DNA from: Catenuloplanes atrovinosus
GTDB taxonomy: Bacteria; Actinomycetota; Actinomycetes; Mycobacteriales; Micromonosporaceae
Assembly: GCF_031458235.1 (NCBI RefSeq)
Contig: NZ_JAVDYB010000001.1
Span: 558,001 to 622,000, forward strand
Reading direction: 5' to 3'
Length of the DNA stretch: 64,000 nucleotides
How positions within the stretch are numbered: the stretch's first letter is position 1; every line of letters begins with the position of its first letter. A program made the position numbers and the translations under genes. Shown here piece after piece: positions 25,708-64,000 of the stretch. A model generated the notes under the pieces. That model worked only from the letters and a program-made list of their open reading frames with translations, was not told where the DNA came from and made no database searches.

Positions 25708-26700
25708 GTGATGGAAGACAGCGGGCAGCCCCACGCGCTCCTGCGGGCGGCCGTGCCCCGGCCGGTGCGGACGGCCGTGGTGGTCAACCCGGCGAAGGTC
25801 GCCGACCTCGCCGAGCACCGGCGGCTGATCTGCGAAGGGCTGGAGCCGGCCGGCTGGCCCGAGCCGCTCTGGCTGGAGACCACGCCGGAGGACCCCGGCC
25901 TCGGCCAGGCGCGGGCCGCGGTCGCGGCCGGCGCGGAGGTGGTCTTCGTCTCCGGCGGCGACGGCACGGTCCGCGCCGCGATCAGCGGGCTGGCCGGGAC
26001 CGGCGTGGCGATGGCCGTGCTGCCGTCCGGCACCGGCAACCTGCTGGCCGCGAACCTGGGCCTGGAGGGGCACGTGGCCGCGGCCGTGCGCGTGGTGCTG
26101 GACGGCGGCCGGCGGCTGATCGACGTGGGCGAGGTCGACGAGACCGGCGACTGCTTCGCGGTGATGGCCGGCATGGGCTTCGACGCGCAGATGCTGGCCG
26201 GCACGTCCGAGCGGGCGAAGAAGCGGATCGGCTGGTTCGCGTACCTGTTCGGCGCGGCCCGGCACATCCGGGACCGGCCGATGCGGGTGCGGATCAAACT
26301 GGACGGCAACCGAATCCTGGACCGGCGCGCCCGTACCGTGCTGATCGGGAACGTGGGCCGGCTCCAGGGCGGCGTGCGCCTGCTGGCCGACGCGGAACCG
26401 GACGACGGCCAGTTCAACGTGGCGGTGGTGACCGCGCGCAGCCTGGGCCAGTGGGCGGTGCTCAGCCTGGGCGTGCTCTACCGGTGGCGCCGCGTGCCGC
26501 GGATGGAGCTGTACACCGCATCCGAGGTGGAGGTGCGCAGCAACCGGGCACAGCCGCGCCAGCTGGACGGCGACCTGATCGCGCCGGCCGAGGTGCTGCG
26601 CGTCCGCCTCCACCCGAAGGCGCTGGTGCTGTGCGTACCCCGGCCCGAACGCGCCCGCGACCTGGCCGAGGGCGCCGACCGGGTGAAAGAGAAAGCATGA
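25708..26700 (+). CDS. diacylglycerol kinase-family lipid kinase
   Basis: A 330-aa DAGK_cat family protein: VVVNPAK at the N-terminus, the nucleotide motif VSGGDGTVRAA (GGDGT 83-87), and LPSGTGNLLAANL (PSGTGN 106-111). The C-terminal beta-sandwich includes RQLDGDLIAPAEVLRVRLHP. It phosphorylates a lipid such as diacylglycerol, or a relative (the YegS/BmrU group). It starts GTG-ATG. The TGA at 26698-26700 overlaps the ATG of the first of four micro-ORFs. Confidence 0.9.
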   Translation: MMEDSGQPHALLRAAVPRPVRTAVVVNPAKVADLAEHRRLICEGLEPAGWPEPLWLETTPEDPGLGQARAAVAAGAEVVFVSGGDGTVRAAISGLAGTGVAMAVLPSGTGNLLAANLGLEGHVAAAVRVVLDGGRRLIDVGEVDETGDCFAVMAGMGFDAQMLAGTSERAKKRIGWFAYLFGAARHIRDRPMRVRIKLDGNRILDRRARTVLIGNVGRLQGGVRLLADAEPDDGQFNVAVVTARSLGQWAVLSLGVLYRWRRVPRMELYTASEVEVRSNRAQPRQLDGDLIAPAEVLRVRLHPKALVLCVPRPERARDLAEGADRVKEKA

Positions 26701-26762
26701 GCGAATCATCGGCTCAGCGCCGACCACGCCGTCACCGCAGCCAGGTGGGTGGTCCGGCATGA
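26697..26762 (+). CDS. micro-ORF 1 of the coupled chain (21 aa)
   Basis: Encodes MSESSAQ... with the same Arg-rich core RRPRRHRS and C-terminal VGGPA as the later copies, but lacks four residues (ELAS) near the start. ATG overlaps the lipid-kinase stop and TGA overlaps the next ATG. Translation is plausible from the coupling geometry but unproven. Confidence 0.5.
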   Translation: MSESSAQRRPRRHRSQVGGPA

Positions 26763-26836
26763 GCGAGCTTGCGAGTGAATCATCGGCTCAGCGCCGACCA
26801 CGCCGTCACCGCAGCCAGGTGGGTGGTCCGGCATGA
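26759..26836 (+). CDS. micro-ORF 2 of the coupled chain (25 aa)
   Basis: Encodes MSELASESSAQ followed by RRPRRHRSQVGGPA. It is strongly basic in the middle. ATGA overlaps at both ends. It is identical in protein sequence to micro-ORF 3. Confidence 0.5.
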   Translation: MSELASESSAQRRPRRHRSQVGGPA

Positions 26837-26910
26837 GCGAGCTTGCGAGTGAATCATCGGCTCAGCGCCGACCACGCCGTCACCGCAGCCAGGTGGGTGG
26901 TCCGGCATGA
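26833..26910 (+). CDS. micro-ORF 3 of the coupled chain (25 aa)
   Basis: Identical to micro-ORF 2 at the protein level. ATGA overlaps at both ends. The near-perfect identity of the copies indicates recent duplication. Confidence 0.5.
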   Translation: MSELASESSAQRRPRRHRSQVGGPA

Positions 26911-26984
26911 GCGAGCTTGCGAGTGAATCATCGGCTCAGCGCCGACCACGCCGTCACCGCAGCCTGGTGGGTGGTCCGGCATGA
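26907..26984 (+). CDS. micro-ORF 4 of the coupled chain (25 aa)
   Basis: Same as copies 2 and 3 except HRSL instead of HRSQ near the C-terminus. Its TGA overlaps the ATG of the yihY-type gene (26981), so the chain ends by handing over to a real gene. Confidence 0.5.
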   Translation: MSELASESSAQRRPRRHRSLVGGPA

Positions 26985-28102
26985 GTTCCACCAATCAGGT
27001 TCCCGAGACGCGACTGATGTCCGGGGACGAGCTCTCCGCCGACGACGCGTGGCACGCGCTGCGCGTGTACGGCCGCTGGCACCTGTTCCACGACGCGTTC
27101 GTGCGGTTCCGCTACGGCGACGGCTTCAGCCACTCGCGCGCGCTGGCGCTGCAGCTCTGCCTCGCGGTGGTGCCGTTCCTGATCGCGCTCGCCGGTCTCG
27201 CCACCGACCTCGGCGTGGAGGAGGGCGGCCTGGTGGTGGCGGACACCATCCTCGCGCTCACCCCCGGCGCCAGCCACGACATCGTCGCCGACCTGCTCAC
27301 CGACGACCAGCGCACCGAGGAGGCCGGTGAGCTGGCGCTGGCGCTCGGCCTGATCACCGGCATGGTGTCGCTGACCCAGACCATGGCGCAGATCGAGCGC
27401 GGCGCGAACCGGATATACGGCGTCGAGCGCGACCGCCCGGCGCTGCTCAAATACGTCCGCGCCGCCGTACTCGCGGTGCTGGCCGGCGTGCCCGCGCTGT
27501 TCGGCTTCCTCACGCTGGTCGCCAGCCGCCCGTTCGGCGACTCGATCGCGCGCCGCTACCCGGTCTGGGGCGACGAGTTCGCCGCGGTCTGGAACGTGGT
27601 GCGCTGGCCGGCCAGCCTCGCGCTGGTCGTCTTCGCGGTCGGCGTGATCTTCCGGTACGCGCCGCGCCGCCGCCAGCCCGGCCTGTCCTGGCTGTTGTTC
27701 GGCGCCGCGCTGGCCACCGTGCTGTGGTGGGCGACCAGCCTGCTCCTCGCCGGCTACGTGCGCTTCTCCGGGGGCTTCGGCGACACGTACGGCCCGCTGA
27801 CCGGCATCATCGCGTTGCTGATCTGGGCCAACCTGACCGGCATCGCGCTCTTCCTCGGGCTCGCGTTCGCGGCCCAGCTGGAGGCCGCGCGGGTCGGCGC
27901 GCCGGAGCCGGCCGAGCCGGACCGCTGGCGTCCCACGCCGGCCGACGACCGTCCACACGCGCCACACCTGCCCTCGGCCCGGTCGTCGAAGAACCGCAAG
28001 AGCGTCAAGGCCGCGCGGGTACGGTCGTTCGGCGCCGGCTTCGCGGTCGGCCCGGACGGCACGCACCGCCGGGTCCGCCCGCACAAGCCGCCGCCGGAGT
28101 AG
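26981..28102 (+). CDS. YihY/BrkB-family membrane protein
   Basis: A 373-aa protein with about six TM helices and the family features: FSHSRALALQLCLAVVPFLIALAGL, GLITGMVSLTQTMAQIERGANRIYGVER, and LTGIIALLIWANLTGIALFLGLAFAAQLEAAR. Inner-membrane family of uncertain function (formerly called RNase BN). The C-terminal 70 residues are a charged, probably cytoplasmic tail. Translation begins by ATGA overlap with the last micro-ORF; no other ribosome-binding site is present outside the repeat. Confidence 0.88.
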   Translation: MSSTNQVPETRLMSGDELSADDAWHALRVYGRWHLFHDAFVRFRYGDGFSHSRALALQLCLAVVPFLIALAGLATDLGVEEGGLVVADTILALTPGASHDIVADLLTDDQRTEEAGELALALGLITGMVSLTQTMAQIERGANRIYGVERDRPALLKYVRAAVLAVLAGVPALFGFLTLVASRPFGDSIARRYPVWGDEFAAVWNVVRWPASLALVVFAVGVIFRYAPRRRQPGLSWLLFGAALATVLWWATSLLLAGYVRFSGGFGDTYGPLTGIIALLIWANLTGIALFLGLAFAAQLEAARVGAPEPAEPDRWRPTPADDRPHAPHLPSARSSKNRKSVKAARVRSFGAGFAVGPDGTHRRVRPHKPPPE

Positions 28103-43283: not shown

Positions 43284-43449
43284 GTCGTCGCTGGCGCTCC
43301 TCCCTGCCAGTCCCGCACCCACCCGGCCGACCGCCCCGGCCGTCCTCGGCCCACCCCGCGCCCCCGCCGCCTGCGCCGCTCGCGGCGCGCCGTCCCGTTC
43401 CCGGCCGGCACGCCAGGTGCCCGGCGCGGCTCGTTGCCGTGGGTGGCGT

Positions 43450-43660
43450 GCTGCGGGCCGCGTTTCGTTTCCTGGCTGGGACGCCGCCGTGTCCGGCGTG
43501 GTTCGTGCTGCGGACGCTGTGCTGCGGGCCGTGTCTCGTCCGCGGGCTGGGGCGCCGCCGTCTCCGGCGTGGTTCGTGCCGCGCTGTGCTGCGGGCCGTG
43601 TCTCGTCCGCGGGCTGGGGCGCCGCCGTCTCCGGCGTGGCCTGTGCCGGGGGCACGTGCG
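43450..43660. repeat. 67-71-bp tandem repeat
   Basis: GCTGCGGGCC recurs at 43450, 43521 and 43588. Units two and three share a long block containing GTGTCTCGTCCGCGGGCTGG; the first is more diverged. Confidence 0.75.
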
Positions 43661-51337: not shown

Positions 51338-54300
51338 TCAGCGGCTGGTGCAGACCTCCGGGGACTTCTCGACCGCGCTGGTGGAGTAGACGACCGCGAC
51401 CGTGAAGCAGTAGTCCGCGTCCGGGTTCAGGTTGTAGACCGGGTACTGCTCGGTGCCGGCCGGCAGCTCCTTGATCGGCACGGAGTTGCCGCGCCGGCCA
51501 CCGGCGATGAGCACCGGGCCCTCCGCGTCGTCCGGGTACGCCCAGGTCAGCGTCACCTGCGTGCGTGAGTCCTGGATGCGTACGCCGGTGGGCGGGCCGG
51601 CCGCGGCGCGCACCGGGGCCTGCGCGGGCGGGGGCGTGGCCACGTCGGACGGCGCGCCGGCGGACGCGGTCGGCTGCGGGGGTGCCGGCTGGCGGGTGTC
51701 GCGCTCGGTGAGCAGGAAGCCGCCGATCACCACGATCGTGCCCAGCCCGACCGCGACCAGCGCGGCGATGATCTTTCCGGTGGGGCGCTCGGGGTACCGC
51801 TCCGGCGCCAGACCGGCCGGGCGCCGCGTGGGCACCAGCATGCCGGGCGGTTGCCGCCGCGCCGCCGGGCCCGCGGTGAGGGAGCGGTCTCCCTGGGTAC
51901 GGCGGTGCGCCTTGATCTGCGGCTGGCCCGGCTGGCCGTAGCCGGGCGCCAGCGGCGAGTAGCGGCCGCCGGGGGGTGGCGTCCGGACGCCGCGGGCCTG
52001 GCTGCGCCACGGCTGGTCCTGGCGGGCCTGGCGCTGGGCGTACCCACGCGGGACCCGGTCCTCGGCCGGTGGCCGCTGCTGCTGTGGCTGCTGCTCGGCC
52101 GGCTGGCGGGGCTGGGCGACCGCCGGCGGGGCGGCCTGGTGCGGGCCGTGGGTGGAGAGGTCGTCGAAGACGGCCGGCGGAAGCGGAGCGGCGGCGCCGT
52201 CGTCGGTCCACCGCTGCTCGTCCGGGCGGTCGTCGTAGGGGACCGGGGTGGGTGGCGTCGCGAACCGGCCCTGGCGGGACTGCGGCGGGACCGCGGCCGG
52301 CTGGTCCCCCTGGTCCGGCGTGGCCGGGGGCGCCGACGACCAGGCGCCGGTGGGGTCCGGTGGCTGCCAGGCGGGGGGCTGATCCAGCGGCCAGTCGCCG
52401 AACGGCTCCTCCTCCGGGGCCGTCCCGGCCGGTGGCGGTGTGGGGACCGGCGCGGGGTGGGCCGCGGCGCCGGCGACCCAGGGTGTCGACTTGGGGATGC
52501 CGGAGGCGGGCCAGCGCGGGGTGGGGGGTGGTGTGCGCTCGGGCGGGGTCCACGGGGTGGCACCGCTGTCGCTGCCGCGGGGCCAGGGCTCGGAGGGGCC
52601 GCGCTCCGCGGGCGGCTGCCACGCCTCCGGCCGGTCGGGGTCGGCGGTGGGCCGCCACGCGGCGGCGGTGTCCTGGGGCGCCCGCCGGCCGGCGGGCGCC
52701 GCGGGCTCATCGGCCGGTGGCCGTGCCGGGGTGTCGTCCTCGCCCGGCCGGGGGCCGACGTAGAAGCTCACGGCCCGCCACGGCTCGACGTCGTCGCCGG
52801 TCTGGAGCGGCGGGTGCCACGGGCCGATGACCGGCTCACGGTCGTCCACGGAGGACGCCGCGCCGAGGTCGTGCATCGGTGGGTGCCACGCCGCTTCCGG
52901 TGCGGTGGTGGCGGCCTCCGCCGGCGGCGTGGCGAGATCCTGTTCCGGCGGGTTCTGTCGCGGGGCGGCGCGCTCGGCCGGACCGTCGGCGCCGGGACGC
53001 TCCTCCACATCGGACAGCGACCGGGCCGGTGAGGCGCCGGGCCGCATGTCGTCGGCGCCGATCTCGTCCGGTTCGTCATCCTCTCGCCGTTGCGAGGGAT
53101 CAGCGACAGCCGTCTGCCCGATCACCGGCTCCGGTGTCGCGGCGACGTTCGGGACGCCGCTTTCCGGGGCGGGTGTGTCCCGGGGCTGGGCGGCGGGTGG
53201 CGGATCGTGGATCAGCTCGGGCGCGACCGGCTCTCTGTCGATCGAGGCATCGGAGGGACCGTGGTGATCGTGATCGGGGTCGACGGCCGGATCGGGATCG
53301 GGTGTGTCGTGGTGGGGAGCCGCGCCGTGCGTGCCCCGGGGCGGCCAGTCGATGTCCGGCGCGCTGAGGTCGTCCACATCGGGCGGGAAATCGTCGAAGC
53401 CGGCGTCCGCGGTGAGGCTCGGGTAGGCCGGTGCGGGGTCGGCCCACGGCGCCGGCGGCGGGCCGGCGGCCTCCGTGGGTGGCGCCGGGTCGGCCCGCGG
53501 CGCCGGGGGCGGGCCGGCGGCCTCCGTGGGTGGCGCCGGGTCGGCCCGCGGCGCCGGGGGCGGGCCGGCGGCCCCCGTGGGTGGCGCCGGGTCGGCCCAC
53601 GGTGCCGGCGGCGGTGGCGGAGTGGTGGACTCCGCGGCCGGCGCCACCGGCCTGGGGGATCGCTGCGGAGCCGTGCCCCACGGCGTGCCGGCCGTGCCGC
53701 CGGGAGCGTCCGCGGCGCCGGGCGTCGTGGCGGTGGGGCTGCCACCGTCCGGAGTGGACGGGGCGTCCGTCGTACCGGTGGGGATGGGGAGGTCTGGGGG
53801 GTCGGCGGAGATGTCGTCGTCGGCGGGGTGGAGGTTGCGGCAGACGTGGTCGGGGTCGGCGCCGGCCCGGGCGAGCGCGGCGATCTGCGCGGCCATCGGG
53901 TGGTCGGCGGGGAGATATTCGCGGCAGAGGTCGCGGGCGCCGCTGAAGCGCTGGTGGGCCTCGCCGAAGTTGCCGCAGTCGCGCTCCATGGTGCCGAGCC
54001 GGGCCAGCATCTTGATGCCGGCGGGATGGCCCTCGCCGTAGGTCTCGCGGTGCCGTCGGTACGCGTCCGCGAGCAGCCGGCGGGCGGTCTCGCACTCGCC
54101 GCGCGCGTGTTCGACCGTGGCGAGGTCGGCCTGGGCGGCCAGCACGCGCGTGGAGCCGGGGCCGTCGACCAGCGTGAGCCGGGCGACCACGTCGCGGTAG
54201 AGGTGGGCGGCGCCGGCGTAGGCGCCGACGCGGTGCAGCACGGCGGCGAGCGTGGCGGCCGCGACCACGGTGTGCTCGTCGGCGGGGCCGCGCAGCCGCC

Positions 54301-63646: not shown

Positions 63647-64000
63647 CTTTCGGCACGACTCGTTCACAGGCCGGGTCTCCCCGCGGCTCGCGCTTCTTTC
63701 CGCGTGACCTGTTCGCCGCGGTGGGGAGGGGTTGCTGGCCCGGCCATCTCCGTTCACGGTCGCGCTTGCTTGCCGTGGGGCTCGTCCTGCCGGGAGCGGT
63801 GGAGTTCGGGCGCTCCGTTCACGGTCGCGCTTGCTTGCCGTGGGGCTCGTCCTGCCGGAGGCGCTGAAGTTCGGGCGCTCCGTTCACGGTCGCGCTTGCT
63901 TGCCGCGGGGCTCGTCCTGCCGGAGGCGCTGAAGTTCGGGCGCTCCGTTCACGGTCGCGCTTGCTTGCCGCGGGGCTCGTCCTGCCGGAGGCGCTGAAGT
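63647..64000. other. non-coding 3' region with a 65-bp tandem repeat
   Basis: Frames here are Arg/Leu/Gly translations of the repeat in different phases and do not resemble proteins. The region is cut by the window end. Confidence 0.65.
63751..64000. repeat. 65-bp tandem repeat, at least 3.8 copies, running off the window
   Basis: CGTTCACGGTCGCGCTTGCT recurs at 63751, 63816, 63881 and 63946, exactly 65 bp apart. The second to fourth units are almost identical; the first differs in its second half. 65 is not divisible by three, so the repeat cannot encode a simple repeated peptide in one frame. Confidence 0.92.

Follow-up and report, generated by a model that had tools for sequence, protein, structure and literature searches.

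A four-unit array of ATGA-coupled micro-ORFs upstream of yihY in Catenuloplanes atrovinosus is probably a local expansion of a dispersed, MIRU-like insertion repeat

Between a lipid kinase-like gene and a yihY/BrkB-type gene, Catenuloplanes atrovinosus carries a chain of very short ORFs, each of which starts on the stop codon of the one before. Is such a chain a ribosome relay that tunes yihY translation, a source of short basic peptides, or a by-product of repeat expansion of a leader? These possibilities were raised by an earlier reading of the bare letters (the sequence-only reading) of a 64,000-nucleotide stretch of the genome, referred to here as the window. Our analysis points, with a probability of roughly 85%, to a local four-copy expansion of a dispersed insertion repeat that is predicted to preserve translational coupling and that resembles the MIRUs, the mycobacterial interspersed repetitive units reportedly described by Supply et al. 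in 1997.

Read directly from the DNA, ATGA stands at 26697, 26759, 26833, 26907 and 26981, yielding units of 62, 74, 74 and 74 bp (Table 1). At each unit junction the TGA ends one ORF and the overlapping ATG starts the next, and the junction array of 284 bp, counted from ATGA to ATGA, is made up entirely of the four units. The upstream gene, which belongs to the DAGK_cat and YegS_C families, has its TGA stop at 26698-26700; the 25-aa ORFs beginning at 26759, 26833 and 26907 each terminate on the following ATGA; and the downstream gene, a Virul_fac_BrkB (YihY/BrkB family) member, starts at 26981. The first unit is without 12 nt relative to the others, leaving the frame unaffected. The stretch AGGTGGGTGG precedes three of the array's starts, and unit 4 carries TGGTGGGTGG instead. 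Tandem Repeats Finder described the yihY array as period 74, 3.9 copies and 99% matches with a score of 560, the top of its 24 rows in the window. The sequence, the ORFs and Tandem Repeats Finder all bear out the proposed chain of four ATGA-coupled micro-ORFs running from the lipid-kinase stop to the yihY start. A search of 26500-27200 against Rfam gave no match at E up to 1. Elsewhere in the window we observed a tandem repeat with a period of 65 bp at 63748-64000, running to the window end (3.9 copies, 97% matches), a 51-bp repeat, a multiple of 3, at 53436-53614 (3.5 copies, 95% matches), and a repeat of about 67 bp at 43448-43639 (2.8 copies, 90% matches).

Table 1. Features of the array and its flanking genes, in window coordinates.
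Feature	Position	Strand	Remarks
DAGK_cat/YegS_C lipid kinase-like gene, 330 aa	25708..26700	+	stop TGA inside first ATGA
Unit 1, 62 bp	26697..26758	+	ORF 26697-26762, 21 aa, read from the sequence
Unit 2, 74 bp	26759..26832	+	ORF 26759-26836, 25 aa, MSELASESSAQRRPRRHRSQVGGPA
Unit 3, 74 bp	26833..26906	+	ORF 26833-26910, peptide same as unit 2
Unit 4, 74 bp	26907..26980	+	ORF 26907-26984, single Q to L change
AGGTGGGTGG, Shine-Dalgarno-like, ahead of unit 2 start	26743..26752	+	repeated at 26817 and 26891
TGGTGGGTGG ahead of yihY start	26965	+	counterpart of AGGTGGGTGG in unit 4
ATGA, unit 4 stop and yihY start	26981..26984	+	
yihY/BrkB-type gene, 373 aa	26981..28102	+	downstream of junction

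Copies of the unit occur elsewhere in the genome too. A genome-wide search, proposed as a check by the sequence-only reading, returned 94 blastn matches to the unit in the 8,906,892-bp genome, and its 31-nt core, with up to 3 mismatches allowed, matched 133 times compared with 0 for a reversed-pattern control. We assembled 51 loci from 39 other blastn clusters, 11 loci among 100 of the 133 core matches, and the window; the set draws on 100 of the 133 core matches and is not exhaustive, and more copies turned up later. A pattern script recognised 114 units in the 51 loci, a few shorter ones escaping it (e.g. at L012 and L028), and two or more units in 30 of them. At 40 loci the first NTGA serves as the stop codon of an upstream ORF that counts as coding because its codon-position GC is that of a genuine gene; the test was negative at the other 11. 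Following the ORF chain, the script reached a downstream coding ORF at 44 of the 51 loci. By inspection, each of the remaining seven leads to an ORF or is fused with one. Long fused arrays precede ORFs of 90, 335 and 353 codons at L024, L044 and L048; the repeats at L019 and L055 each share one frame with a long ORF; and the ORFs reached at L033 and L051 are short, at 53 and 72 codons. The last unit is 74 bp long and ends on NTGA at 44 of the 51 loci, continues in frame into the downstream ORF at six, and was misread by the script from a shortened head at one. From the upstream and downstream ORF counts and the last-unit endings it follows that the repeats lie at start codons, in reading orientation.

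If these are insertions, what do the same junctions look like in relatives? With 130-nt queries taken from 20 loci of the set, we found orthologues in four congeners and made 64 locus-by-genome comparisons at 19 loci, namely 18 of those 20 and the window against C. japonicus; we excluded L010 and L046 because the repeats themselves had led to their orthologues, and removed duplicate loci. A site was called empty when it lay within 12 nt of the length predicted by array removal. We observed 36 empty sites, 12 with a recognised unit and 16 in some other state. The length was exact at 27 of the 36 empty sites and off by 3, 6 or 9 nt at the other nine, and ATGA or GTGA stood in place of the array (e.g. 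at L016, L038, L042, L044 and L053); the empty L039 site in the congener G003 has ATGG. Five of the 16 other sites resemble, by eye, shortened units of about 57-65 bp, and the rest show different changes at L021, L023, L035, L045, L053 and L058. The class of unit also differs between genomes at some junctions: L056 has two 74-bp units in C. atrovinosus, one 74-bp unit in G004, one 77-bp unit in G001 (Catenuloplanes japonicus NRRL B-16061) and no unit in either G002 or G003. Two congeners (L134 and L102) have another kind of short repeat at L021, where the downstream gene begins.

The yihY junction itself is empty in G004 (ATGA) and G002 (GTGA) and has one 50-bp unit in G003, one 77-bp unit in G001 and four units (284 bp) in C. 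atrovinosus, giving 0/0/1/1/4 across five congeneric species. By eye it is also empty in four Actinoplanes loci and one Asanoa locus, which have TTGA, GTGA or ATGA overlaps. Repeat expansion of an inserted leader, one of the readings originally offered, is supported in that the junction is empty in two congeners and holds one unit in two others. Frame-breaking lengths, named beforehand as evidence against the coupled chain, are absent from this junction in the four congeners (0, 0, 50 and 77 bp versus 284 bp in C. atrovinosus), and every unit there has a length of 2 mod 3. Presence that differs between congeners at one junction could also reflect repeated loss.

Unit lengths follow a phase rule. 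Among 63 tandem spacings scored in the 51 loci, 37 were 74 bp, and all 37 were stop/restart junctions with NTGA; 24 were 75 bp, and all 24 were in-frame read-through, NTGA being lost in 23. The other two spacings, both at L009, were 72 bp (read-through) and 64 bp (stop elsewhere), and none of the 63 was 73 or 76 bp. Open frames were retained across 62 of the 63. Counted by locus, NTGA was retained in 20/20 loci with 74-bp spacing versus 1/9 with 75-bp spacing (Fisher p 2e-6). Spacing and NTGA state inside one locus are not independent, and some of the nine 75-bp loci (L038 and L053) share junction letters, so that the nine represent fewer independent events. The mean anti-SD duplex energy per locus, calculated as the pairing of the 17 nt before the junction with the 16S tail, was -10.5 kcal/mol for 74-bp and -4.2 for 75-bp junctions, with -4.7 at random positions (p 1.8e-5). 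The comparison of NTGA and Shine-Dalgarno state between the two kinds of junction shows that start and Shine-Dalgarno are kept where a restart is needed and mostly lost elsewhere. Retention of the Shine-Dalgarno is not absolute, since L038 and L053 also have a weak one before the downstream gene (-4.8 and -4.6).

The same rule was observed in other genomes, where all 15 registered 74/77-bp junctions are coupled and all six 75/78-bp junctions are read-through; four of these six are without NTGA, and the two with NTGA keep a strong Shine-Dalgarno (-9.2 and -11.3). Six further rows from other genomes, with 80- and 95-bp units, are out of register and were judged separately from their sequences. 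The ATGA relay architecture put forward for the window is upheld by the stop/restart at every 74-bp spacing and by the retained NTGA and Shine-Dalgarno, and there is good evidence at the level of sequence that the arrays are translated. Copies within a locus are 89% identical (30 loci) versus 76% for first units of different loci, as slippage would yield, and a plain untranslated minisatellite with accidental ATGA junctions would explain this difference. For untranslated DNA, however, neither dispersal to dozens of gene starts nor the linked loss of NTGA and Shine-Dalgarno in 75-bp arrays is expected, and we give a minisatellite hardly any credence.

We therefore return to the insertion repeat and picture what is observed (dispersal, gene-start position, empty and filled sites, the 74/75 phase rule, and retention of start and Shine-Dalgarno) as follows. 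Each unit would be a complete micro-ORF, from ATGA to ATGA, with its own Shine-Dalgarno-like stretch. Insertion, perhaps by transposition or conversion, would occur at an NTGA start that is usually also the stop of the preceding gene, and would double the ATGA. A ribosome ending the upstream gene could then restart on the unit and, at the end of the unit, on the downstream gene; with the ATGA doubled, the frame open and a Shine-Dalgarno of its own, translation would pass from upstream gene to unit to downstream gene. Since the restart would take place on the doubled ATGA, an operon should tolerate any number of 2 mod 3 units. The tandem copies would come from ordinary local repeat duplication, in line with the 89% identity within loci versus 76% between them. 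In the cell, ribosomes probably resume translation on every ATGA, and the benefit presumably lies mainly in harmlessness to the host operon, not in yihY regulation. The ribosome relay is thus best read as a consequence of coupling-preserving insertion.

Alternatively, the relay may have been selected for regulation, the number of coupled micro-ORFs setting the ribosome supply downstream and serving as a tuning dial for yihY and other genes, which we consider possible though doubtful. Retention of Shine-Dalgarno and NTGA where restart is needed would agree with such a dial, as would the variation in unit number at the yihY junction (0/0/1/1/4) and the recognised unit in 12 of 64 orthologous comparisons. 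Yet 36 of 64 comparisons with relatives show these junctions empty, which argues that the relay is dispensable, and 75-bp arrays drop the restart and retain the open frame alone. RNA structure bears on both sides. A hairpin was scored when at least 11 places in the last 13 nt of a unit, including the next start, paired with an arm further upstream. In the 77-bp class 21 of 40 units have such a 3′ hairpin, which would enforce coupling, versus 0.18 expected, but in the 74-bp class 0 of 24 tested units, mostly from congeners, have it. A start-sequestering hairpin is therefore a property of only part of the family. RNAalifold gave z -0.45 for the mixed set of 77-bp units (3′ half -1.5), -5.2 for the g29 subset and -1.1 for the Catenuloplanes-type subset. 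The 74-bp units of this genome gave z -2.2 (3′ half -2.8), a signal that comes from a nearly invariant 4-bp GCCG/CGGC helix with no covariation, and mutual information on the units mainly split two lineages. Three stretches of the window array were no more stable than shuffles (z -0.31, -0.98 and 0.18), and folds of this array drew the Shine-Dalgarno-like stretch paired.

REP/RAYT and MITE repeats are small and dispersed and encode no enzyme. The present family is likewise small, dispersed and without an encoded enzyme, and its 77-bp class has the 3′ hairpin; the palindrome check found this hairpin in 21/40 units of that class and 0/24 of the 74-bp class, the latter having the short GCCG/CGGC helix (z -2.8, 3′ half). 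If the repeat were a REP- or IS200-type element mobilised by a Y1/RAYT transposase of the same genome, this would account for a hairpin that extends into the ATGA (z -5.2 in the g29 set). Unlike REP/RAYT repeats, the units sit at start codons in reading orientation, and the Y1 transposase family PF01797 had 0 matches in 7/7 repeat-bearing genomes versus a positive result in 5/14 control genomes. We rejected a RAYT/IS200 mobiliser on this absence from 7/7 genomes and regard such an element as exceedingly improbable.

The peptide itself does not appear to be what is maintained. That the units encode short basic peptides acting as peptides would fit the open frames in 62 of 63 spacings and the conserved SSAQRRPR stretch of the class seen in the window. 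Against this, diversity is nearly flat across codon positions 1, 2 and 3 (0.216, 0.218 and 0.252; 45 units, one per locus), which gives little indication that the amino acids are under selection. Similarity between units is much higher in their first 43 nt than in the remainder, even at third positions. Three genomes belonging to genus g4 (G130, G161 and G164) have 80-bp units with the same DNA (GCGAGCGAATCATC..CTCAG or near), which follows a small insertion and is read in another frame, yielding MSERQRANHQ.., MSERLRANHQ.. and one MSERSERIIR.. versus MSELASESSA.. in C. atrovinosus. All of these units (L226-L229) end on ATGA except one cut by a contig end. Because homologous DNA is read in other frames elsewhere, the peptide is not the conserved thing; across the g4 relatives it changes completely and coupling persists. 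Searches of Pfam and NCBIfam gave no family for the unit peptides, with one sub-threshold DUF1155 match of a fused array (19.2 bits; cut-off 25). The Arg-rich peptide with its RRPRRHRS core is indeed present in the window units as first noticed, but it is one of several encoded by related units, and the proposed source of short basic peptides is disfavoured. We rule against a basic-peptide function on the flat codon-position diversity and the frame-shifted homologues, and consider it highly unlikely.

The repeat could also supply signals for transcription initiation and thereby allow independent expression of the downstream gene. We counted such a promoter role as a rival because a passage in PMC4213456 says that the MIRU-holding senX3-regX3 region of M. 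tuberculosis drives senX3-independent regX3 expression. A simple scan that covers few actinomycete promoters found no sigma-70-like promoter in 26500-27200, and the phase rule would be left unexplained, which makes this role improbable in our judgement. A simple scan likewise found no terminator at the array.

The family extends well beyond this genome. The 33-nt head, with up to 3 mismatches, occurs in 13 of 250 Micromonosporaceae genomes: the five Catenuloplanes genomes have 117 (C. atrovinosus), 27 (G001), 11 (G002), 10 (G003) and 9 (G004) matches, and outside the genus it is patchy within the family, with up to 20 matches in G125. These head matches across family genomes support the suggestion, offered with the first reading, that MSE-type leaders are dispersed over gene starts of Micromonosporaceae. 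The 33-nt head had no match in phages and three weak, partial, chance-like matches in plasmids. At the level of the order, a 77-bp query matched 17 of 140 genomes, which belong to families f1, f2, f4, f13, f15 and f16. In 13 of 20 loci fetched from the order's matching genomes the script found the head pattern, and these loci mostly hold micro-ORFs of 12-32 aa terminating on ATGA or GTGA, with three tandem 95-bp units in G277; as exceptions, L218 stops at TAG, L219 is a fusion, and contig ends truncate L221 and one L222 unit. Across the class, the strict head pattern occurs in 3 of 296 genomes, C. atrovinosus and two of genus g136 from another order, whose units are mostly 26 aa. All these counts are lower bounds because frame-shifted heads escape the patterns. 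In the same class search the strict pattern of the 25-nt head had no match in 24/24 genomes of family f8. We take f8 to be the mycolata because 2-5 copies of the arabinosyltransferase are present in 5/5 tested f8 genomes; a single copy is present in one genome each of f15 and f16.

A broader reading, which we offer only tentatively, is that these repeats form a frame-agnostic insertion family spanning several families and at least two orders of Actinomycetes. The 25-nt head would be near-invariant, and the peptide not, because a dedicated mobilising activity recognises the head and targets NTGA coupling sites; ribosome restart would then provide harmlessness, and long arrays would act as multi-step relays.

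The closest known system is the MIRU. A passage in PMC12548453 describes MIRUs as apparently mobile, inserting at start codons and having an internal ORF 4-nt-coupled to the downstream gene; part of PMC3914561 gives lengths of 46-101 bp and 41 loci in M. tuberculosis H37Rv; and PMC3635867, a further paper, also treats MIRUs. The senX3-regX3 gap has 77- and 53-bp MIRU units according to a section of PMC4213456, lengths that, like those of the present units, are 2 mod 3. The present family shares four features with MIRUs. It is a short dispersed repeat (74 bp, 133 core matches, 51 loci examined); it is tandem with variable copy number (0/0/1/1/4 across five congeneric species); its internal ORF is co-oriented with a 4-nt NTGA overlap (upstream at 40/51 loci, downstream at 44/51); and insertion is at the start codon or NTGA (36/64 empty comparisons, including the yihY junction in G002 and G004). 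It differs in that the host is Catenuloplanes (Micromonosporaceae), not a mycobacterium, and in apparently being another sequence, as the 25-nt head is absent from 24/24 f8 genomes, MIRUs being compared by description. Given the non-mycobacterial host and the apparently different sequence, we call the repeat MIRU-like and not a MIRU. The architecture is that published for MIRUs, seen here in other actinomycetes and with what appears to be another sequence. Among the best open-access matches listed, no paper dealt with repeats of this kind in Micromonosporaceae or with MIRU-like ones in hosts other than mycobacteria.

A section of PMC12548453 reviews how overlaps of 4 nt couple the translation of neighbouring genes through termination-reinitiation. 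The junctions described here have the same geometry, with a Shine-Dalgarno ahead of the restart, but the coupled ORFs are repeats, with up to five successive restarts, and are secondarily inserted. Natural chains of this length provide material for termination-reinitiation studies. MIRUs are widely used for typing and, to our knowledge, their movement and the translation of their ORFs have hardly been tested. The large natural set in this soil genus, where some sites are filled and others empty, copy number varies and junctions are of the restart or the read-through kind, makes both MIRU mobility and ORF translation testable. For annotation, it is worth noting that an insertion repeat fused to a gene accounts for some N-terminal MSELASE.. 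stretches (6 of 51 loci). As a separate observation, six units at 75-bp spacings at L024:2055-2507 on the minus strand form a 150-aa repeat ORF between two genes, whose product would be protein-like though built from an insertion repeat.
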